Source of the DNA: Oscillospiraceae bacterium
GTDB taxonomy: Bacteria > Bacillota_A > Clostridia > Oscillospirales > CAG-272
NCBI GenBank assembly: GCA_015064195.1
Contig: SVSO01000109.1
Location: forward strand, 1 to 9,248
Direction: 5' to 3'
Length of the DNA stretch: 9,248 nt
Part shown: in pieces, positions 959 through 9,248 of the stretch
Numbering within the stretch: the stretch's first letter is position 1
How the letters are laid out: each line of letters begins with the position of its first letter
Translations under genes and position numbers: made by a program
Notes under the pieces: model-generated
What the model was told of the DNA's origin: nothing
Database searches by the model: none
The model's input: only the letters and a program-made list of their open reading frames with translations

Positions 959-987
959 ATTATAACAAATGTGCGGATGCGATTCAA
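959..987 (-). promoter_or_regulatory. Sigma-A-type promoter for the leftward membrane-protein/addB genes
   Basis: Read on the minus strand, TTGAAT (987-982) and TATAAT (964-959) are separated by exactly 17 bases. Transcription would begin at about 952, only a few bases before the ATG at 950 and after the ATG at 956. The match is near consensus; the start point is inferred. Confidence 0.7.
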
Positions 988-1007
988 GAGAAATTTCGGA
1001 AATTCTC

Positions 1008-1036
1008 TTTACTTTATCAAAAAAATGTTGTATAAT
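1008..1036 (+). promoter_or_regulatory. Sigma-A-type promoter for the topoisomerase gene
   Basis: A perfect TATAAT at 1031-1036 follows TTTACT (1008-1013, a fair -35 match) with a 17-base spacer. The predicted start near 1043 gives a leader of about 25 bases before the ATG at 1068. It is divergent from the leftward promoter, with the two -35 boxes only about 20 bases apart. Confidence 0.65.
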
Positions 1037-1067
1037 AGAAGGAGTAACAAGAAAAAGGAATGACGAA

Positions 1068-3062
1068 ATGGCAACCAAGAAAAAAGATTCAACCTACGGC
1101 GACCAGAGTATCATCATGCTGAAAGGCCCCGACCGTGTGCGAAAGCGCCCGGGCGTTATTTTCGGTTCGGACGGACTTGAGGGCTGCGAGCATTCGGTGT
1201 TCGAGATCCTGTCAAACGCGGTGGACGAGGCGAAGGAGGGCTTCGGCTCGGAGATCCGGGTGAGAGCCTTTGCCGACCACTCCATCGAGGTGGATGACCG
1301 CGGCCGCGGCGTTCCGCTGGGATGGAACGAGGCGGAGGGAAAATTCAACTGGGAGCTGATCTACTGCGAAATGTACGCAGGCGGCAAATACAACAACAAT
1401 TCCGGCGATTCCTCCTACGAATTCTCGCTGGGCCTCAACGGCCTCGGTGCCTGCGCCACCCAGTACGCCTCCGAATGGATGGAGGTGGCATCCTACAACG
1501 GCGAGAGCGTCAGCCGCATCTCCTTCAAAAAAGGCTTTCCCGCATCAGAGCTTGTCACCGAGCCACTGGACAAAAAATCCCGCCGCACAGGTACGACCAT
1601 CCGCTGGCTGCCCGACCTTGAAGTATTTGCGGACATCAACATCCCGAAGGAATACTTCACCGAGGTGCTGAAAAAGCAGTCCATCGTCAACCCGCGCATC
1701 AAGTTTATCCTCGAATGGGAGACGGCGGAGGGCGAATTCGATGTCAGCGAATATTATTATGAGAACGGCATCATCGACTATGTGTCGGAGCTGACCGGCG
1801 GTGACAGCATGACCGCGCCGGTGCTGTGGCATCTGGAGACCATGGGCCGCGACCGTGCGGACAAGGATGAATACAAGCTGCGGGCGGACATCTCCTTCTG
1901 CATCTCCAACACGGTGAATGCCGTGGAATATTACCACAATTCCAGCTTCCTAGAGCATGGCGGATCACCGGATAAAGCGGTGCGCAGTGCCTTCGTGTTC
2001 GCGGTGGATAAATACCTGAAAACCCAGGAAAAATACAACAAAAACGAGTCCAAGATCACCTATTCGGACGTGGAGGATTGTCTGGTGCTGGTCATCAACA
2101 GCCAGTCCACTCAGACCTCCTACGAAAATCAGACGAAAAAAGCCATCACCAACACATTTATAAAGTCCGCGCTGGAGGATTTTCTCAAGCGGCAGCTGGA
2201 GGTTTATTTCGCCGAGAATCCGCTGGAGGCGGAACGGATGGCGGGGCAGATCCTCGTCAACAAGCGTTCCCGCGAACGTGCCGAGGAAACGCGCATCAAG
2301 ATCAAGACCGATCTCACCGGCAAGATCGATATCGCCAACCGCATCGACAAATTTGTGGGCTGCCGGTCGAAGGATCCGGAGCGGCGTGAGCTTTATATCG
2401 TCGAGGGCGATTCCGCACTCACCTCCTGTAAGCTGGGACGTGCGGCGGAATTTCAGGCCATCATCGCCGTCCGCGGCAAGACGCTCAACTGCTTAAAGAG
2501 CGGATACGATAAAATTTTCAAGAGTGAAGTCATCACCAATCTCATCAAGGTCATCGGATGCGGCGCGGAGATCGAGGGCAAGGTCAAGGGAGACATTCCG
2601 AAATTTGATTATGACGCCCTCCGCTGGTCGAAGATCATCATCTGCACCGATGCGGACGAGGACGGCTATCAGATCCGCACGCTCATCCTGACCATGTTCT
2701 ATCGCCTGCTGCCCACCCTCATCAAGAAGGGAAAGGTGTACATCGCCGAATCCCCGCTGTTTGAGATTACCTGCAAGGATAAGATCCAGTTTGCATACAA
2801 CGAGCAGGAAAAGGCGGACATCATAAAGAAGCTGGGAAATGCGAAATATTCGCTTCAGCGCTCGAAGGGTCTCGGTGAGAACGAGCCGGAAATGATGTGG
2901 GAGACTACCATGAATCCCGAGACGCGCCGGCTCATCAAGGTAAACGAAACGGATGCGGAGGAGACCTACCGCATCTTCAACACCCTCCTCGGCGACGATC
3001 TGGAATCGCGCAAGGAATATATCACCCTCTACGGAAATCAGTACTACACGAGGGAATCATAA
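1068..3062 (+). CDS. Divergent type IIA topoisomerase subunit B (GyrB/ParE-like)
   Basis: A 664-residue ATPase subunit of a gyrase/topoisomerase IV-type enzyme. The GHKL ATPase part shows the N-box with E46 and N50 (EILSNAVDEA), DRGRG at 77-81, the glycine-rich lid GLNGLGA at 122-128, and a QTK loop at 355-357. The Toprim part has E446 in VEGDSA and D528/D530 in TDADEDG, so the metal-binding acids are kept, and QRSKGLGE near 597-604 is also present. Several usually invariant stretches differ: EGDSALTSCK replaces EGDSAGGSAK, and AVRGKTLN replaces PLRGKxLN. It therefore looks like a divergent paralogue rather than the housekeeping GyrB. The start is ATG 1068, with AAGGA 8 bases upstream and after the predicted promoter; the open frame extends back to 969, upstream of the promoter, and is not credible there. 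No subunit A gene follows; a terminator does, so its partner must be encoded elsewhere. Confidence 0.88.
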   Translation: MATKKKDSTYGDQSIIMLKGPDRVRKRPGVIFGSDGLEGCEHSVFEILSNAVDEAKEGFGSEIRVRAFADHSIEVDDRGRGVPLGWNEAEGKFNWELIYCEMYAGGKYNNNSGDSSYEFSLGLNGLGACATQYASEWMEVASYNGESVSRISFKKGFPASELVTEPLDKKSRRTGTTIRWLPDLEVFADINIPKEYFTEVLKKQSIVNPRIKFILEWETAEGEFDVSEYYYENGIIDYVSELTGGDSMTAPVLWHLETMGRDRADKDEYKLRADISFCISNTVNAVEYYHNSSFLEHGGSPDKAVRSAFVFAVDKYLKTQEKYNKNESKITYSDVEDCLVLVINSQSTQTSYENQTKKAITNTFIKSALEDFLKRQLEVYFAENPLEAERMAGQILVNKRSRERAEETRIKIKTDLTGKIDIANRIDKFVGCRSKDPERRELYIVEGDSALTSCKLGRAAEFQAIIAVRGKTLNCLKSGYDKIFKSEVITNLIKVIGCGAEIEGKVKGDIPKFDYDALRWSKIIICTDADEDGYQIRTLILTMFYRLLPTLIKKGKVYIAESPLFEITCKDKIQFAYNEQEKADIIKKLGNAKYSLQRSKGLGENEPEMMWETTMNPETRRLIKVNETDAEETYRIFNTLLGDDLESRKEYITLYGNQYYTRES

Positions 3063-3353: not shown

Positions 3354-3848
3354 ATGAAAAAGAAACTGACCACAGTCGCATTCAAGGGTACGCCCGAGAT
3401 GAAGGCTCAGCTTGACGCCTTCATTGCGGAAAACAAGGGCACAAAGGGCGCGGCCATGCCTGTACTCCAGAAAGCACAGGAAATCTACGGATACCTGCCG
3501 ATCGAAGTCATGGACCAGATCGCAAAGGGTCTTGAGATGCCCATGGAGGAGATCTACGGTATCGCATCCTTCTATTCCCAGTTCTCCCTCAACCCCAAGG
3601 GTGAGGTTTCCATCGCTGTATGTCTGGGTACTGCCTGCTACGTTAAGGGTTCCGGCAATCTCATCAACAAGATCTCCGAGATCATCGGCATCTCTGCCGG
3701 CGAAACCTCCGCAGACGGCAAGTATTCGCTCGACGCTACCCGCTGCATCGGCGCGTGCGGTCTGGCACCTGTCCTGACTGTAAACGACGAGGTTTACGGC
3801 AGACTGGTCGTTGACGATATCCCCGGCATCATCAAGAAGTATCAGTAA
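3354..3848 (+). CDS. hydC: NuoE-like [2Fe-2S] subunit of bifurcating hydrogenase (HydC type)
   Basis: A 164-residue protein of the complex I 24-kDa (NuoE) family. A helical N-terminal part, including QEIYGYLP and IYGIASFYSQF typical of the family, is followed by a thioredoxin-like domain. Its four cysteines, C90 and C95 (CLGTAC) then C131 and C135 (CIGAC), have the C-x4-C and C-x3-C spacing that binds one [2Fe-2S] cluster. With HydB and HydA this subunit would pass electrons between NADH-linked flavin and the hydrogenase, in the cytoplasm. It is the first gene after the Rex operator. Its codons (many GTT, GTA, GCA, CGC) suggest high expression. Paralogues also occur in NADH-dependent ferredoxin oxidoreductases and formate dehydrogenases, so the HydC name rests partly on the hydB gene downstream. 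Confidence 0.88.
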   Translation: MKKKLTTVAFKGTPEMKAQLDAFIAENKGTKGAAMPVLQKAQEIYGYLPIEVMDQIAKGLEMPMEEIYGIASFYSQFSLNPKGEVSIAVCLGTACYVKGSGNLINKISEIIGISAGETSADGKYSLDATRCIGACGLAPVLTVNDEVYGRLVVDDIPGIIKKYQ

Positions 3849-3884: not shown

Positions 3885-4238
3885 ATGAAAATCAGAGAAA
3901 TCAGAGAACTTCTCGATGCTGAGCTTCTGTGGGGCGAGGAGCATCTTGACTACGATGTGGAGAGCGCCTGCTGTTCCGACATGATGAGCGATGTGCTCGC
4001 ATATGTTAAGGATCAGGGCGTGCTGATCACGGGTCTTATCAATCCGCAGGTCATCCGCACCGCCAATATGATGGATATCCTCTGCATCGTTTTCGTCAGA
4101 AGCAAAGCCCCCACCGAAGAAATGGTCGCACTGGCAAAGGAATGCGGCATCGTCGTGATGACATCCGCTCATCGCGCATTCGAAGCAAGCGGCATCCTTT
4201 GGGCAGCAGGACTTTCCACCGAATCGGAGGGTAAGTGA
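3885..4238 (+). CDS. DRTGG-like domain protein 1
   Basis: A 117-residue cytoplasmic protein that consists of one alpha/beta domain resembling DRTGG and the N-terminal domain of HPr kinase. The pattern is a short N-terminal helix, a pair of acidic/cysteine residues (ACCSDMMSD, 28-36), alternating strands and helices (VLITG at 46-50, LCIVFVRS at 66-73), then PTEEMVALAKECGIVVMTS at 76-94. DRTGG domains occur in phosphotransacetylases and CBS-domain pyrophosphatases and are thought to be regulatory, perhaps ligand-binding; no enzyme activity can be assigned. GGAGA lies 7 bases before the ATG. Its stop overlaps the next start (TGATG), indicating translational coupling to the ATPase. It is clearly similar to the protein at 6030-6359. 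The fold assignment rests on sequence pattern only. Confidence 0.65.
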   Translation: MKIREIRELLDAELLWGEEHLDYDVESACCSDMMSDVLAYVKDQGVLITGLINPQVIRTANMMDILCIVFVRSKAPTEEMVALAKECGIVVMTSAHRAFEASGILWAAGLSTESEGK

Positions 4239-4660
4239 TGTCTGAAGCAGTAAGATTCCATTTCGACGTGGACGGGTCGGATTTTTCGTCGGCCGGCGCT
4301 GCGTCCGTCATGGTCAAAAAGAAGCTGCGTCAGCTGGGATATCCCCCGGATATCATACGCAAAGTCTCCATAGCAATGTACGAGGGAGAGATCAACATGG
4401 TGATCCATGCCAACGGCGGTACTGCCGACGTTGACGTGTACGACGACGAGATCGTCATCATTCTTGCCGACAAAGGTCCCGGCATCCCCAACGTAGAGCT
4501 TGCCATGCAGGAAGGCTATTCCACAGCCCGCGACAACATCCGCGTGCTGGGCTTCGGCGCCGGAATGGGTCTTCCCAACATGAAAAAGTATACGGACGAG
4601 ATGACCATTGACACCGTGGTTGGAGAGGGCACCACCATCACCATGAAGGTAAAACTCTGA
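4238..4660 (+). CDS. RsbW-like GHKL ATPase (anti-sigma factor/serine kinase type)
   Basis: A 140-residue stand-alone GHKL ATPase domain. The N-box has E49 and N53 followed by IHA (EGEINMVIHA), the G1 box is DKGPGIP at 78-84, and the G2 box is GFGAGMGL at 105-112. The layout and length match RsbW/SpoIIAB-type serine kinases, which bind a sigma factor or phosphorylate an antagonist protein. No STAS antagonist or sigma factor gene is nearby, so the partner is unknown; the DRTGG-like proteins are candidates. The ATG at 4238 is chosen over a GTG three bases earlier because GGAGG (4227-4231) then sits 6 bases away. The start overlaps the previous stop as TGATG. Kinase activity itself is inferred. 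Confidence 0.8.
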   Translation: MSEAVRFHFDVDGSDFSSAGAASVMVKKKLRQLGYPPDIIRKVSIAMYEGEINMVIHANGGTADVDVYDDEIVIILADKGPGIPNVELAMQEGYSTARDNIRVLGFGAGMGLPNMKKYTDEMTIDTVVGEGTTITMKVKL

Positions 4661-4693
4661 TCTTTCCAAGTAAGCAGTAATATCGAGGTGCAT

Positions 4694-6043
4694 ATGGGAA
4701 CAGATTACAAGCATTCAGTCTCACTTGATATCGATAAATGCAAGGGCTGCACCGCCTGCCTGAAACGCTGCCCCACCGAAGCGATCCGCATCCGTGACGG
4801 ACACGCGGTCATCAATTCGGCACGGTGCATCGACTGCGGCGAGTGCATCCGCGTCTGCCCTTACAAGGCGAAAAAGGCGACGCATGATGATCTGTCGATC
4901 CTCGGTAATTTCAAGTACACGATCGCGCTTCCGGCACCTTCGCTGTACGGACAGTTCGACAATCTGGACAACATCGGCTATATCATCCGCGGACTCCGGG
5001 ATATCGGCTTCGACGATGTTTTCGAGGTGGCCTGCGCCGCCGAGCTTGTGAGCGCATACACACGCTCCTACATCAAGCGTGAGGACATCAAAAAGCCCAT
5101 CATCAGCTCCGCCTGCCCTGCAATCACCCGCATCATCAGCATGAATTATCCTTACCTCTGTGAGAATATCATGCCGATCCTGCCTCCGGTGGACATCGCG
5201 GCGGCTCTCGCAAGAGAAAAAGCGGAAAAGGAACATCCCGAGCTTTCCCCCGACGACATCGGCGTTGTGTTCATCTCCCCATGCCCCGCCAAGGTCAGCT
5301 ACGTGCGCAATTCCTTCGCGGGCGAGCGCAATTACATCGATGCAACCGTTGCGATGCGCGATGTGTATTTCAAGCTGGTGGATGCCATGAACAAACGCAA
5401 GGATGAGCCGCTGGAAATGACCGATTCCGGCATGATCGGCATCGGCTGGGCTTCCACAGGCGGCGAATCCACGGCCATTCTCAATGATCGCTATCTGGCG
5501 GCGGACGGTATCGAAAACTGTATCCGCGTGCTGGATCAGATCGATAATTCCGACATGGTCACGCTGGATTTTGTCGAGCTGAATGCCTGCAGCGGCGGCT
5601 GTGTGGGCGGTGCGATGACAGTCGCGAATCCCTACATCGCACAGGCGAGACTGCAGACGCTCAAACGCTATCTTCCGGTATCACCCAACCGGCCGGCCAG
5701 CGATTGGATCCCCGATGAATACTTCAATGAGAAGCAGATCGAGTACAATCCCTACAGCCTGCTGTCCGATGACCGAAAGACAGCGATGCGCATGATGAGC
5801 GAGATCGAATCCATCCGATGTGAGCTGCCCGGACTTGACTGCGGCTCCTGCGGCGCACCGACCTGTATGGCATTCGCCGAGGATCTGGTCAAAAAGGAAA
5901 CCTGCGCGGATGAATGTACGGTCATCATGCGGAAAATGATTCACGAATATCTCGGTGACAGACGGGATGAGGCCATGACGGATCTCCTCCATCGCTTCGG
6001 AACCGGGAAAAAAACGGAGGACAAGGGCAATGACGGTGAATGA
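4694..6043 (+). CDS. [FeFe]-hydrogenase-like protein, probable H2/redox sensor, PAS-less
   Basis: A 449-residue iron-sulfur protein. Two ferredoxin-type [4Fe-4S] motifs (C16-C19-C22-C26 and C45-C48-C51-C55) are followed by an H-cluster domain: SSACP (138-142), SPCPAK (195-200), and ELNACSGGC (295-303). The four H-cluster ligands (C141, C197, C299, C303) are kept, but the Cys before C141, the proton-relay residue in catalytic enzymes (TSCCP), is Ala. A third Fe-S domain (C383, C386, C391 and C404 or C408) lies near the C-terminus. This layout matches putatively sensory group C hydrogenases such as HydS, but the PAS domain usual at their C-terminus is absent; only a polar tail follows. A low-activity or sensing role is therefore more likely than bulk H2 production. 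ATG 4694 follows GAGGTG closely; GTG 4688 is the alternative start. Confidence 0.85.
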   Translation: MGTDYKHSVSLDIDKCKGCTACLKRCPTEAIRIRDGHAVINSARCIDCGECIRVCPYKAKKATHDDLSILGNFKYTIALPAPSLYGQFDNLDNIGYIIRGLRDIGFDDVFEVACAAELVSAYTRSYIKREDIKKPIISSACPAITRIISMNYPYLCENIMPILPPVDIAAALAREKAEKEHPELSPDDIGVVFISPCPAKVSYVRNSFAGERNYIDATVAMRDVYFKLVDAMNKRKDEPLEMTDSGMIGIGWASTGGESTAILNDRYLAADGIENCIRVLDQIDNSDMVTLDFVELNACSGGCVGGAMTVANPYIAQARLQTLKRYLPVSPNRPASDWIPDEYFNEKQIEYNPYSLLSDDRKTAMRMMSEIESIRCELPGLDCGSCGAPTCMAFAEDLVKKETCADECTVIMRKMIHEYLGDRRDEAMTDLLHRFGTGKKTEDKGNDGE

Positions 6044-6359
6044 ACTTGCCGAAAAGCTTGAGCTTTCCGCCATCTGCGGATCGCTCGATAAGACGTTTGA
6101 CGGCGCTTATGCCGGCGATCTGCTCAGCCGCTGCATGAGCCGCGTCGAAGCCGATTGCCTCTGGATCACCATCATGGCAAATGTCAACGTGATCGCGGTT
6201 GCCACACTGACCGAACCGGCCGCCATCATTCTCGCGGAGAATGTGGAGGCATCGGAGGAGGTCATCGAAGCCGCAAATGAAAACGGCATCACACTGCTCA
6301 GTTCCGCTCTCGGCGCATATGAGCTGTGCTGGCGGATTCATGAGCTGGTGGGGCAGTGA
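6030..6359 (+). CDS. DRTGG-like domain protein 2
   Basis: A 109-residue protein that aligns along its length with the DRTGG-like protein at 3885-4238. Shared features are the N-terminal helix, AGDLLSRCMS (28-37) against CCSDMMSDVL, a strand-rich middle, and SEEVIEAANENGITLLSS against TEEMVALAKECGIVVMTS. The two are diverged, so an old duplication is likely. A ligand-binding or regulatory role is possible; no catalytic residues stand out. GGAGG (6016-6020) lies 9 bases before the ATG. The gene overlaps the 3' end of the hydrogenase-like gene by 14 bases and its stop overlaps the PHP gene by 4 bases, which shows tight coupling to both. Confidence 0.65.
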   Translation: MTVNELAEKLELSAICGSLDKTFDGAYAGDLLSRCMSRVEADCLWITIMANVNVIAVATLTEPAAIILAENVEASEEVIEAANENGITLLSSALGAYELCWRIHELVGQ

Positions 6360-7099
6360 GCCGCTATTTATGTGATCTGCACATCCACTCCTGTCTGTCT
6401 CCCTGCGGAGACGACGACATGACACCGGGCAATATCGCCGGCATGGCGGTGCTGAACGGACTGCAGATCGTGGCGCTGACAGACCATAATTCAACAAAAA
6501 ACTGCCCCGCATTTTTTGCGGCGTGCAGAAGCTACGGGCTGATACCGGTGGCCGGTATGGAGCTGACGACGGCGGAGGACGTTCACGCGGTCTGTCTGTT
6601 CCGCGACCTTGAGGGCGCCATGGATTTTGGCAGATTTGTCGAATCAAAACGCCTGCCCATCAAGAATAAGCCGGCGATCTTCGGCAATCAGCTCATCATC
6701 GATGAAAACGATGAGATCTCCGGTGAGGAGGAATTTCTCCTCATCAACGCATCGGGCATCTCGCTCGATGAGGCGCACAGGGAAGTGACGGCCAGAGACG
6801 GCGTCTGCTATCCGGCGCATATCGACAGAAGCGCAAACGGCATCATCGAAATGCTGGGCGATTTTCCGCCCGAACCGCGTTTCACCGCCTTTGAACTGAA
6901 CGATATCGCGTCCCTTGCTGACTGCCGATCCAAATACCCCATCATCACCGAGCGTCAACTCACGCACATCGCGTCCTCCGATGCGCATTATCTCACGGAT
7001 ATTTCCGAGACGGGATATCCCGTGGAGCTTGCCGATGAGCCGTATTCCTCCGCACTGGTGCGGAACCGGCTGATCGATTACCTGCTGGGGCTGAGGTAG
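6356..7099 (+). CDS. PHP-domain metal-dependent phosphoesterase
   Basis: A 247-residue cytoplasmic PHP-family protein. The metal-binding motifs appear in order: HIH (H9, H11), TDHN (D43, H44), GMEL (E69), H77, AHID (H155), and SDAH (D209, H211). Together they would hold a two- or three-metal centre that hydrolyses phosphate esters. Families with this fold act on histidinol phosphate, nucleotides or DNA ends; the substrate here cannot be told. An insertion around residues 95-135, rich in acidic residues, separates the first and second halves. The start is GTG at 6356, overlapping the previous stop (GTGA) with a GGTGGGG stretch just upstream. Its position between the hydrogenase-like sensor and an ATPase suggests a role in signalling, perhaps removing a phosphate or a small messenger; that is a guess. 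Confidence 0.87.
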   Translation: MSRYLCDLHIHSCLSPCGDDDMTPGNIAGMAVLNGLQIVALTDHNSTKNCPAFFAACRSYGLIPVAGMELTTAEDVHAVCLFRDLEGAMDFGRFVESKRLPIKNKPAIFGNQLIIDENDEISGEEEFLLINASGISLDEAHREVTARDGVCYPAHIDRSANGIIEMLGDFPPEPRFTAFELNDIASLADCRSKYPIITERQLTHIASSDAHYLTDISETGYPVELADEPYSSALVRNRLIDYLLGLR

Positions 7100-7102
7100 A
7101 AT

Positions 7103-7657
7103 ATGGACGAACTTTCGCTTTATGTACTGGACATCACCATGAATTCCGTGCGCGCAGGCGCATCGGAAATCACCATCTCCCTCATTGAGGAGGGTGATTG
7201 GCTCACCTTCTCCGTCACCGACAACGGCTGCGGCATGAAGGAGGAGCAGGTGAAGCGGCTGACCGATCCCTTCTTTACCACACGCAAAACCCGCAAGGTG
7301 GGCCTTGGCATTCCGTTCCTCACCATGCTGGCCGAAATGACCGGCGGCGGGGTGACGATCACGTCAAAGCACGAATCCGAGGGCGAGGATCACGGGACGA
7401 CCACCACCGCAAGATTCAACATGGATCACATCGATTTCACCCCCCTCGGCGACATGGTCGGGACGGTGAAAACGCTGATTCAGGGCTCGCCGGAGGTGAA
7501 TTTCACCTACCGTCACAAAATGGCGGGCGGGGAAGTGTATCTCTCCTGCGCGGAGCTTCGGGAGGAGCTTGGCGAGGAGATCCCGCTGAACGAGCCGGAA
7601 ATTCTCATGTGGATCGACGGCTATCTGCATGAGCAATACGAAGCCGTCGGAGCTTAA
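7103..7657 (+). CDS. Stand-alone histidine-kinase-like GHKL ATPase
   Basis: A 184-residue protein with the ATPase domain of histidine kinases at residues 1-105: N-box D10 and N14 (LDITMNSVRAGA), G1 box DNGCGM (40-45), F-box DPFFTT (55-60), G2 box GLGI (67-70), and GTTT near 98-101. There is no upstream dimerisation/phospho-acceptor helix pair with a histidine, no sensor domain and no membrane segment, so it is not a complete two-component kinase. The C-terminal 75 residues form an alpha/beta extension I do not recognise. It starts 3 bases after the PHP stop, with GAGG inside that gene's end as ribosome binding site. It differs from the RsbW-like ATPase in having an F-box and the extension. 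Its phosphorylation target, if any, is not evident. Confidence 0.8.
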   Translation: MDELSLYVLDITMNSVRAGASEITISLIEEGDWLTFSVTDNGCGMKEEQVKRLTDPFFTTRKTRKVGLGIPFLTMLAEMTGGGVTITSKHESEGEDHGTTTTARFNMDHIDFTPLGDMVGTVKTLIQGSPEVNFTYRHKMAGGEVYLSCAELREELGEEIPLNEPEILMWIDGYLHEQYEAVGA

Positions 7658-7699: not shown

Positions 7700-8071
7700 A
7701 TGAAGTCACTTGAAGAGCTGAAAGCTATCAAAGCGAAGATGCAGGACAAGGTTAATCTGCGCACCTCCAGCGCGGAGACCCGTATCGTAGTCGGCATGGC
7801 TACCTGCGGTATCGCTGCAGGCGCACGTCCTGTTCTGAATGCATTCGTTGAGGGCGTTACCGAGGCAGGTCTCGGCGACAACGTGATCGTTACCCAGACC
7901 GGCTGCATCGGCATCTGCCAGTATGAGCCTGTCGTTGAGGTTTACCAGAGTGGTGCTGAAAAGGTTACTTACGTTAAGATGACCGCTGAGCGTGCAAAGG
8001 AAGTTATCGAGAAGCACATCAAGGGCGGCAAGATCGTAAACGAGTACACCATCGGCGCTGCTACCAAATAA
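7700..8071 (+). CDS. Small thioredoxin-fold [2Fe-2S] ferredoxin-like protein
   Basis: A 123-residue protein resembling the C-terminal half of NuoE/HydC. After a helical N-terminus, TCGIAAGARPVL (35-46) and TGCIGICQYEP (67-77) match the [2Fe-2S] ferredoxin pattern, but only three cysteines are present (C36, C69, C73): the residue where C-x4-C would place the second Cys is G41. A non-Cys ligand or an altered cluster is possible. Such small proteins often sit next to hydB and hydA in Clostridia and probably carry electrons to or within the complex. AAAGGA lies 8 bases before the ATG. A 42-base AT-rich gap separates it from the ATPase gene, the longest gap in the operon, and codon use returns to the hydC style, which hints at separate expression. 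Confidence 0.82.
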   Translation: MKSLEELKAIKAKMQDKVNLRTSSAETRIVVGMATCGIAAGARPVLNAFVEGVTEAGLGDNVIVTQTGCIGICQYEPVVEVYQSGAEKVTYVKMTAERAKEVIEKHIKGGKIVNEYTIGAATK

Positions 8072-8091: not shown

Positions 8092-9248
8092 ATGATTCGT
8101 TCTCATGTACTTATCTGCGGCGGTACGGGTTGTACCTCGTCCGGCTCTGTCGCACTGAAGGACAAGCTCGCCGCTGAGCTGAAAACCAAGGGCCTTGAAG
8201 AAGAAATCAAGATCGTCATGACCGGCTGCTTCGGTCTGTGCGCACTCGGCCCGATTATGATTATCTATCCGGAAGGCACGTTCTACAGCCGTGTTACTCC
8301 CGAAGACATCCCCGAGATCGTTGAGGAGCATCTGCTCAAGGGTCGTATCGTTGAGCGTCTTGTTTACAATGACACCGGCGATGCAAAGGGCGAGGATGAG
8401 GCTGAGGCTGCATCTCTGTCCGAGACCATGTTCTACAAGAAGCAGAAGCGTGTTGCACTGCGTAACTGCGGCGTTATCAACCCTGAGGAAATTGACGAGT
8501 ACATCGCTATGGACGGTTATTTCGCACTGCAGAAGGTTCTGACCGAAATGACTCCCGACGATGTTATCAAGACCATCCTCGATTCCGGTCTGCGCGGACG
8601 CGGCGGCGGCGGATTCCCCACCGGCCGTAAGTGGATGTTCGCAAAGGCTTCCGTTTCCGACAAGAAGTATGTTGTATGTAATGCCGACGAGGGCGACCCC
8701 GGCGCATTCATGGACCGTTCCGTTCTCGAGGGCGACCCCCACGCTCTGATCGAGGCTATGGCAATCGCCGGCTACGCAATCGGTGCTGACGAAGGTTACG
8801 TTTACGTTCGTGCAGAGTATCCGATCGCCGTTAAGCGTCTCTCCATCGCCATCAAGCAGGCTCGCGAATATGGTCTGCTGGGCAAGGACATCTTCGGCAC
8901 CGGCTTCAACTTCGATATCACCATCCGTCTGGGCGCAGGCGCATTCGTATGCGGCGAGGAGACTGCACTTCTCACCTCCATCGAAGGCAACCGCGGCGAG
9001 CCTCGTCCCCGTCCGCCGTTCCCGGCAGTCAAGGGTCTGTTCGGCCAGCCTACCATCATCAACAATGTTGAGACCTACGCAAACATTGCGCAGATCATCC
9101 TGAACGGTCCGGAATGGTTCGCTTCCATGGGTACCGAAAAGTCCAAGGGCACCAAGGTATTCGCACTGGGCGGCAAGATCACCAACACCGGTCTCGTTGA
9201 GATCCCCATGGGTACCACCCTCCGCGAAGTTGTCGAGGAAATCGGCGG
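8092..9248 (+). CDS. hydB: NuoF-like flavoprotein subunit of bifurcating hydrogenase (HydB type), partial
   Basis: The first 385 residues are present; the gene runs off the right edge. An N-terminal thioredoxin-like [2Fe-2S] domain (C9, C14, C46, C50) is followed by the NuoF core: RGRGGGGFPTGRKW (168-181) for NADH, NADEGDPGAF (197-206) for FMN, and GAGAFVCGEETALL (281-294) with the downstream GEPRPRPPFP. This domain fusion is typical of HydB and related NADH-dependent subunits. In bifurcating hydrogenases HydB is the site of NADH oxidation and flavin-based electron bifurcation. The C-terminal [4Fe-4S] and ferredoxin domains lie outside. AGGAGG at 8075-8080 is 11 bases before the ATG, 20 bases after the previous stop. 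NuoF-like subunits of formate dehydrogenases or NfnAB-like enzymes are alternatives until hydA is seen downstream. Confidence 0.92.
   Translation, partial: MIRSHVLICGGTGCTSSGSVALKDKLAAELKTKGLEEEIKIVMTGCFGLCALGPIMIIYPEGTFYSRVTPEDIPEIVEEHLLKGRIVERLVYNDTGDAKGEDEAEAASLSETMFYKKQKRVALRNCGVINPEEIDEYIAMDGYFALQKVLTEMTPDDVIKTILDSGLRGRGGGGFPTGRKWMFAKASVSDKKYVVCNADEGDPGAFMDRSVLEGDPHALIEAMAIAGYAIGADEGYVYVRAEYPIAVKRLSIAIKQAREYGLLGKDIFGTGFNFDITIRLGAGAFVCGEETALLTSIEGNRGEPRPRPPFPAVKGLFGQPTIINNVETYANIAQIILNGPEWFASMGTEKSKGTKVFALGGKITNTGLVEIPMGTTLREVVEEIG

Follow-up and report, generated by a model that had tools for sequence, protein, structure and literature searches.

Introduction

TamHydS is a group D (M2e) [FeFe]-hydrogenase for which a sensory role has been proposed (PMC8163306). 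It turns over H2, slowly (PMC8163306, PMC10407848), and is reported to alter its secondary structure in response to H2, although H2 does not reduce its C-terminal cluster (PMC13104023, 2026). The latter paper states that the signaling partners of TamHydS are unknown and calls for its interaction partners to be identified. Here we analyze a set of regulatory genes around a TamHydS-like gene in a 9,248-nucleotide stretch of DNA from an Oscillospiraceae bacterium (contig SVSO01000109.1 of assembly GCA_015064195.1; hereafter the window). Six genes encode a stand-alone DRTGG-domain protein (D1), an SpoIIAB/RsbW-like GHKL protein (Rsb), the hydrogenase-like HydS, a second DRTGG protein (D2), a PHP-family enzyme and a second GHKL ATPase (HK), between genes for HydC and for the small protein Fdx and HydB of a bifurcating hydrogenase. 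The same regulatory gene set stands beside the hydrogenase complex in anaerobic gut bacteria and their relatives, where it probably forms a redox- or hydrogen-sensing switch.

Parts of this neighborhood have been noted before. Group D hydrogenases occur near kinases (PMC3561251, PMC3608648, PMC8163306) and, together with kinases, upstream of bifurcating hydrogenases (PMC3561251, PMC3608648), in agreement with a preliminary description of the window, made from its sequence alone, which had called HydS-type hydrogenases near hyd operons known. Judged by the Teth39 locus numbers, two genes could lie between HydS and the operon in that case, which matches the window (PMC3608648). The group C (M2f) proteins HydS of Ruminococcus albus and HfsB of Thermoanaerobacterium are also putative hydrogenase-like sensors, in an operon with the phosphatase-like HfsC; unlike the window HydS, they carry a PAS domain and sit with hydA2/hfsD (PMC11837493).

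In Halanaerobium hydrogeniformans, the ten genes Halsa_1862-1871 were listed as a putative operon, in the excerpt without mechanism or comparison (PMC4237134, 2014): hydrogenase, NADH dehydrogenase, ferredoxin-like protein, histidine kinase, NuoE, PHP, "iron-sulfur binding hydrogenase", FeS protein, anti-sigma factor/kinase and an unidentified ORF (open reading frame). Matched by printed name and locus number, not by sequence, this list follows the commonest gene order that we find; HydC lies between PHP and HK there, whereas it precedes D1 in the window. The label "iron-sulfur binding hydrogenase" falls on the gene at the D2 position and is probably misleading; no cysteine is conserved in 95% of the D2 alignment rows. 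The preliminary description held that the full signaling chain had not been described. A gene list was thus already in print, but the open-licence literature, which leaves most subscription journals outside, yielded no test of the joint function of these genes and nothing related that links DRTGG with a hydrogenase.

The set also resembles the partner-switching pair of SpoIIAB/RsbW and SpoIIAA/RsbV, with a small GHKL kinase carrying the Glu and Asn and small partners bearing an invariant serine. In contrast to that pair, the partners here are DRTGG and not STAS proteins, a PHP enzyme stands in place of the PP2C phosphatase, and the sensor would be the hydrogenase-like protein or a fused pair of CBS domains. 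Among the matches listed, DRTGG was not found in the partner-switching literature. Pfam showed no STAS, PP2C or sigma-factor domain among ten window proteins, the rest of the genome lying outside this search.

Results

Gene order in relatives

The window groups with a gut Clostridia lineage. Its 39 named relatives are metagenome bins, the named hosts being roe deer, water buffalo, sheep, yak, goat, water deer and dairy cattle, and their HydS proteins are 53-84% identical to that of the window. All 39 have the order HydC-D1-Rsb-HydS, with short gaps and overlaps much alike, and D2-PHP-HK is also seen in 37; in the other two (loci L030 and L032) the DNA ends just after HydS. The six ORFs of the window all lie on the + strand, with overlaps of 4, 14 and 4 nt and gaps of 27 and 3 nt.

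The order D1-Rsb-HydS-D2-PHP is kept in 107 of 115 genomes (one locus per genome). Five of the eight exceptions stop near the end of their DNA (L030, L032, L157, L160, L165); the other three are weighed in the Discussion. D1, Rsb and D2 were present in all of 40 regions of 20 kb picked by hand down the list of Rsb scores, with HydS missing in L107 and PHP in L083. The 115 genomes are a non-random sample: a further 40 regions came from the list of genomes negative for the maturase HydF, another 20 were chosen partly for long Rsb frames, and the regions cover part of the 185 Rsb-positive genomes of the class. Order does not mean that the genes touch, as two of the 107 genomes (L074, L076) have 4.1-4.4 kb between HydS and D2. 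Extra DNA also interrupts an otherwise tight block in L028, with 269 bp between PHP and HK.

The commonest full order, D1-Rsb-HydS-D2-PHP-HydC-HK-Fdx-HydB-HydA, occurs in 27 of the 115 genomes. HydC directly precedes D1 in 40, and 39 of these are close kin of the window. The natural units are D1-Rsb-HydS-D2-PHP and HydC-HK-Fdx-HydB-HydA. Seen against the order across the 115 genomes, the window arrangement is thus a local rearrangement of two blocks, in which the five-gene block looks inserted because HydC has shifted upstream. The preliminary description had read the locus as a six-gene cassette inside a hyd operon. The set is real, and its genes do lie between HydC and Fdx/HydB with overlapping or near-touching ends; however, five of them are one block while HK belongs to the hydBC operon, and a place inside the operon is not the general state.

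Co-occurrence of Rsb and HK

We scored genomes for Rsb (profile match at E <= 1e-20), HK (E <= 1e-25) and HydF; in the class searches, at most ten, eight and four candidates per genome were scored, respectively. Of 391 Clostridia genomes, 185 had an Rsb match, as did 72 of 189 genomes drawn from the phylum without rank labels. Over the 391 genomes, 178 have both Rsb and HK and 190 have neither, while 7 have Rsb only and 16 HK only (phi 0.88). When three weak HK matches are dropped, the counts become 176 (both), 9 (Rsb only), 15 (HK only) and 191 (neither). The corresponding counts for Rsb and HydF are 141 (both), 44 (Rsb only), 120 (HydF only) and 86 (neither), with a phi of 0.19. Because these counts treat related species as if they were independent, the p-value for Rsb and HK should not be read literally, but the effect size holds.

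The co-occurrence of Rsb and HK is nearly perfect, also when they are unlinked, and HK is the best co-occurring partner of Rsb among those counted. HK was detected in all 17 genomes whose block has no hydB in the DNA around the locus. It adjoins the block in one (G387), whereas in the other 16 the two sit on different contigs or are separated by over 300 kb. Eight of these 16 were searched for hydrogenases, and in seven of them the top HydA-type match was no more than 4 kb from HK. The preliminary description had proposed a search for conserved co-occurrence near hyd genes across Clostridia and took its lack as telling against the idea. Such co-occurrence is clear, in the block order as in the phi value.

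Neighboring genes may also be inherited together without any joint function; many genomes in the sample are related to one another, and many resemble metagenome bins that are incomplete. We nevertheless consider plain co-inheritance highly improbable, given the phi of 0.88 over 391 genomes, the retention of HK at a separate place in 16 genomes and the gene fusions described below.

Rsb, D1 and D2

Rsb matched the NCBIfam model spIIAB with an E value of 2.5e-15, below the model cut-off, and the SpoIIAB structure 1til with 4e-7. E50 and N54, which we take to be the SpoIIAB-type catalytic Glu and Mg-binding Asn, are invariant in 120 of 120 alignment rows. D1 carries a D32-x-x-S35-D36 motif and T49; S35, D36 and T49 are found in 120/120 rows and D32 in 119. 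D30, S33, T47 and N53 of D2 are each invariant (97/97 rows). The motif is common to both paralogues, and S35 of D1 and S33 of D2 may be phosphoacceptor serines; a role as helix cap would explain their invariance as well.

D1 and Rsb are fused, D1 first, into a single protein of 269-270 aa in four genomes of the phylum draw (L195, L196, L197, L203). Pfam supports two of these fusions, and in L195 the DRTGG match falls just below the cut-off. At five loci in four genomes (L205-L209), an N-terminal pair of CBS domains is fused to Rsb, as found by Pfam at four loci and assigned by like sequence at L207. HydS was not found in the locus DNA at four of these five loci, the rest of the genomes lying outside the search; L206 has a HydS. 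CBS-Rsb loci that lack HydS suggest that Rsb may take another sensor, and since L205 retains HydA, HydS can be lost without the hydrogenase being lost too. Some loci were chosen for long Rsb frames, so the share of fusions is not a frequency. Two CBS-Rsb copies (L207 and L208) belong to one genome (G544), one copy accompanied by D2-PHP-HK, the other having nothing more beside it than D1, Fdx and an Rnf-type operon. A "HydS fragment" at L207 was rejected as an RnfB-like polyferredoxin, one false row among 17 added HydS rows.

The likeness of Rsb to anti-sigma F allows a transcriptional reading: Rsb would be a true anti-sigma factor, D1 and D2 would be anti-anti-sigma factors of DRTGG fold, and a sigma or transcription factor would be encoded elsewhere. 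An AraC-family regulator that flanks the HydS gene of Thermoanaerobacter mathranii would fit this scheme (PMC8163306); the constant neighbors of HydS here, in contrast, are D1, Rsb, D2 and PHP. We judge such transcriptional control unlikely, because the ten window proteins searched hold no sigma or STAS domain and because the best co-occurring partner counted is HK, which goes with HydC-HydB rather than with a regulator.

HK and PHP

D10 and N14 of HK are invariant in 87/87 rows. The predicted HK model (pLDDT 92) begins at the N-box helix, and its best Foldseek matches are N-terminal fragments of PMS2/MutL, followed by TopoVI-B and GRP94, with TM scores (query) of about 0.3-0.6. No HisKA/DHp phosphoacceptor-histidine domain was found in HK, either by Pfam, which gives HATPase matches only, or in the predicted model. 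Two kinases had been thought possible at this locus; since HK lacks such a domain, only Rsb is a strong kinase candidate.

Nine His/Asp/Glu positions of PHP are invariant in 96/96 rows, and H9, H11, H44, E69, H77, H155, D209 and H211 are presumably metal ligands. The PHP model (pLDDT 95) has its best fold matches in BAD_1165, EndoQ and RNase AM. PHP enzymes include nucleases and nucleotidases, and the earlier label "phosphatase-like" is a guess.

The clamp-like fold of HK, its lack of a DHp domain and its strict co-retention with the block also suit an assembly or repair cluster. HydS would then be a degenerate scaffold or carrier akin to the enzyme (compare NifEN and NifDK), the GHKL ATPases would be chaperone clamps, and the DRTGG and PHP proteins would assist in the assembly or protection of the HydABC FeS clusters. 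The FeS ligands of HydS, kept even where its diiron-site residues are lost (see below), point the same way. However, Rsb is closest to the anti-sigma kinase SpoIIAB, the CBS-Rsb fusion resembles a signal input, the block accompanies HydBC also without HydA, and TamHydS turns over H2, albeit slowly (PMC8163306, PMC10407848). A role in assembly or repair therefore seems to us distinctly unlikely.

HydS and the loss of diiron-site residues

The window HydS shares the layout of TamHydS: two N-terminal 4Fe-4S motifs, an H domain and a C-terminal Cx2Cx4Cx16C motif. With short ORFs under the length limits and identical rows left out, the H-cluster cysteines C143, C199, C301 and C305 and eight N-terminal cysteines are present in 97/97 rows, and C385, C388, C393 and C410 of the C-terminal motif in 96/97. 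Alanine (A142) occupies the position of CpI C299 in 92/97 rows, and Ser or Thr (residue 197, Ser in the window) that of M353 in 96/97. The proposed Glu/Glu/(Ser,Thr)/Asp proton path is represented by E260, E297, T257 and D273, equivalent to E252, E289, S249 and D265 of TamHydS when numbering is mapped by a constant offset, not by aligning TamHydS. E260 is conserved in 94/97 rows, E297 in 97/97, S/T257 in 88/117 and D273 in 105/117. Pfam found no PAS domain, the group C (M2f) feature, in the window HydS, and like TamHydS it is encoded with a bifurcating hydrogenase. Judged by its motifs, replaced residues, proton path and lack of PAS, the window HydS has the published sequence features of group D (M2e) (PMC8163306, PMC10407848).

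HydF matched in 141 of the 185 Rsb-positive genomes, and we surveyed HydS residues in 137 genomes, four of which gave no HydS in the DNA around the locus. Among the remaining 133, Gln replaces E260 in 16, of which 15 also carry Arg at K202; the four H-cluster cysteines are retained in every one of the 16. No match to HydE, HydF or HydG was scored in 13 of them, while G114 and G160 are HydF-positive and G297 has HydE and HydG with no HydF match. HydE was searched in the 44 HydF-negative genomes, 42 of which had rpoB above the cut-off. Because HydG and HydF can adjoin (G396), their joint absence from incomplete bins is not independent, and many genomes of the maturase-negative set, scored on at most four HydF candidates, look like such bins.

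The gene that follows HydB differs between the two kinds of HydS. In operons readable past HydB, HydS with K202 and E260 goes with HydA in 52 and with RnfC in one (G145), whereas Q260 HydS goes with RnfC in six and with HydA in one (G139). Where the run has no HydB, G068 provides a second K202/E260 HydS beside RnfC, and in G324, which has Q260, RnfC comes after the block. Taken with caution, HydS tends to retain its diiron-site residues where HydA persists, and the FeS framework persists without them. An RnfC-type gene instead of HydA follows HydC-HK-Fdx-HydB at seven loci (L092, L096, L150-L153, L157) and follows the block and HK without HydB at others (L107, L166, L206), so that a HydBC-Rnf link is possible. 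In G324 (L159, L107), the degenerate HydS lies ~1 Mb from a D1-Rsb-D2-PHP-HK block that lacks HydS.

Phylogenetic trees, from which rows shorter than 390 aa were omitted (a second tree keeps six of the 39 close relatives), place the Q260 HydS proteins in one clade. Hence K202 and E260 were lost in one event, or perhaps two if L206 (Q260 beside RnfC) is considered; a single Q260 clade including L206 is not rejected by the AU test (p-AU 0.335). Loss in many separate events was rejected, as the tree requires one change.

The reading that all genomes have a HydS working as a complete H-cluster sensor was also rejected: 39 of the 185 Rsb-positive genomes are negative for HydF, HydG and HydE, 13 of them with a degenerate HydS. 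A clade without K202/E260 and mostly without maturase matches means that H2 itself cannot be the signal everywhere. These data suggest that H-cluster chemistry matters in most genomes, yet the basic signal of the module may be redox state. Counting against this reading, 42 further genomes without HydF/HydG matches keep K202 and E260; incompleteness of the bins may account for many of these, though not in any obvious way for G068, a single contig of 2.45 Mb.

Two of the 39 maturase-negative genomes, G068 (2.45 Mb) and G324 (3.26 Mb), are single contigs, and most of the 39 have HydA-type matches. If the absence of maturases is real, these would be hydrogenases without known maturases. The best HydA-type ORF reads TSCSPGW in all of 30 HydF-negative genomes (L114-L143); its Ser takes the second position of the TSCCP motif, where CpI has a cubane ligand. 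HydA1 of Acetobacterium woodii (7q4v) likewise reads TSCSPGW.

Gene map of the window

The features are collected in Table 1. Pfam, run on the ten window proteins, bears out the domain labels first given to the six genes (DRTGG, RsbW-like ATPase, PAS-less hydrogenase, DRTGG, PHP, GHKL). HydS may start at the ATG at 4694 instead of 4688. Upstream of HydC lie a GyrB/ParE-like gene (969-3062, + strand), a 184-aa ORF with weak matches only (402-956, - strand) and, at the window edge, an ORF that we take to resemble the N-terminus of an AddB-type helicase (3-392, - strand).

Table 1. Genes of the regulatory block and the adjoining hydrogenase operon in the window.
Feature	Position	Strand	Evidence
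HydC, thioredoxin-like [2Fe-2S] subunit of bifurcating hydrogenase	3354..3848	+	Pfam PF01257, E 2e-48
D1, stand-alone DRTGG-domain protein, 117 aa	3885..4238	+	PF07085, 28.8 bits (cut-off 25.2)
Rsb, SpoIIAB/RsbW-like GHKL protein, kinase-type N-box (E50, N54)	4235..4660	+	NCBIfam spIIAB; Pfam HATPase_c/HATPase_c_2
HydS, group D (M2e)-type [FeFe]-hydrogenase-like protein	4688..6043	+	Pfam Fer4, Fe_hyd_lg_C and FeS; alignments
D2, second stand-alone DRTGG protein, 109 aa	6030..6359	+	PF07085, 30.6 bits
PHP-family metallo-phosphoesterase	6356..7099	+	PF02811, E 8e-10; model and fold search
HK, GHKL ATPase (D10, N14), C-terminal alpha-beta-beta-alpha-alpha extension	7103..7657	+	Pfam HATPase_c; predicted model
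Fdx, small thioredoxin-like [2Fe-2S] protein of HydBC operon	7700..8071	+	NCBIfam NF041612, below cut-off
HydB (NuoF-like), truncated by window end	8092..9248	+	NCBIfam nuoF_fam, E 2e-104, below cut-off for the cut piece

Discussion

The observation made in the window is confirmed and is far more general than first stated. Most weight among the new findings falls on how closely Rsb and HK co-occur, on the fusion of D1 or of a CBS pair to Rsb, and on the serines that never vary. The original signaling interpretation keeps its core, a conserved group of genes that look regulatory and are linked to the hydBC operon by co-occurrence, fusions and invariant residues; its grouping gives way to five genes plus one, and HK is no longer a strong kinase candidate. 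That the genes form a functional unit is well supported, and a mechanism such as the following is plausible.

We lean, on balance, toward a module that signals redox state or H2 to the NADH- and ferredoxin-dependent HydBC complex, working like a partner switch free of STAS domains, with HydS as its putative sensor. Gene order, the near-perfect co-occurrence of the two blocks, the fusions and the conserved active-site residues are observed; the kinase, phosphatase and sensor activities, the phosphorylation site, the direction of signal flow and the output are inferred. Rsb would be a Ser/Thr protein kinase in direct complex with D1, with Ser35 of D1 as the likely phosphate acceptor and D2 (Ser33) as a second acceptor or competitor. 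HydS may report H2, or the redox state of its own FeS clusters, to Rsb and the DRTGG proteins through a change of shape, and PHP would remove either a phosphate or a signal nucleotide. The result would be relayed to HydBC(A) by HK, the GHKL ATP-binding clamp from the HydC-HydB operon, acting on the enzyme or on its expression.

Several points weigh against this model. We know of no DRTGG domain that is a kinase substrate, no transcription factor was found in the block, and PHP may be a nuclease or nucleotidase. HK is present without Rsb in 16 genomes, PHP is not detectable beside D2 at L083 and L182, and the block at L107 has no HydS. The block also persists in a clade whose HydS no longer has K202/E260 and in which 13 of 16 genomes are maturase-negative.

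A broader interpretation, which we offer tentatively and as possible rather than probable, is that the set represents a new bacterial switch: a SpoIIAB-type kinase acting on DRTGG proteins, with interchangeable sensors (HydS or a CBS pair) and control of HydBC through HK. It would be a general controller of NADH/ferredoxin balance that outlives hydrogenase chemistry, and one clade, mostly beside Rnf and not HydA, would keep HydS as an all-FeS sensor without a diiron site.

For group D HydS proteins, Rsb, D1, D2, PHP and HK can now be named as candidate partners on comparative grounds. The invariant serines are targets for mutation, and the natural D1-Rsb and CBS-Rsb fusions can be expressed as they are. 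With Rsb in 185 of 391 Clostridia genomes, the system may set the H2 output of many fermenters.

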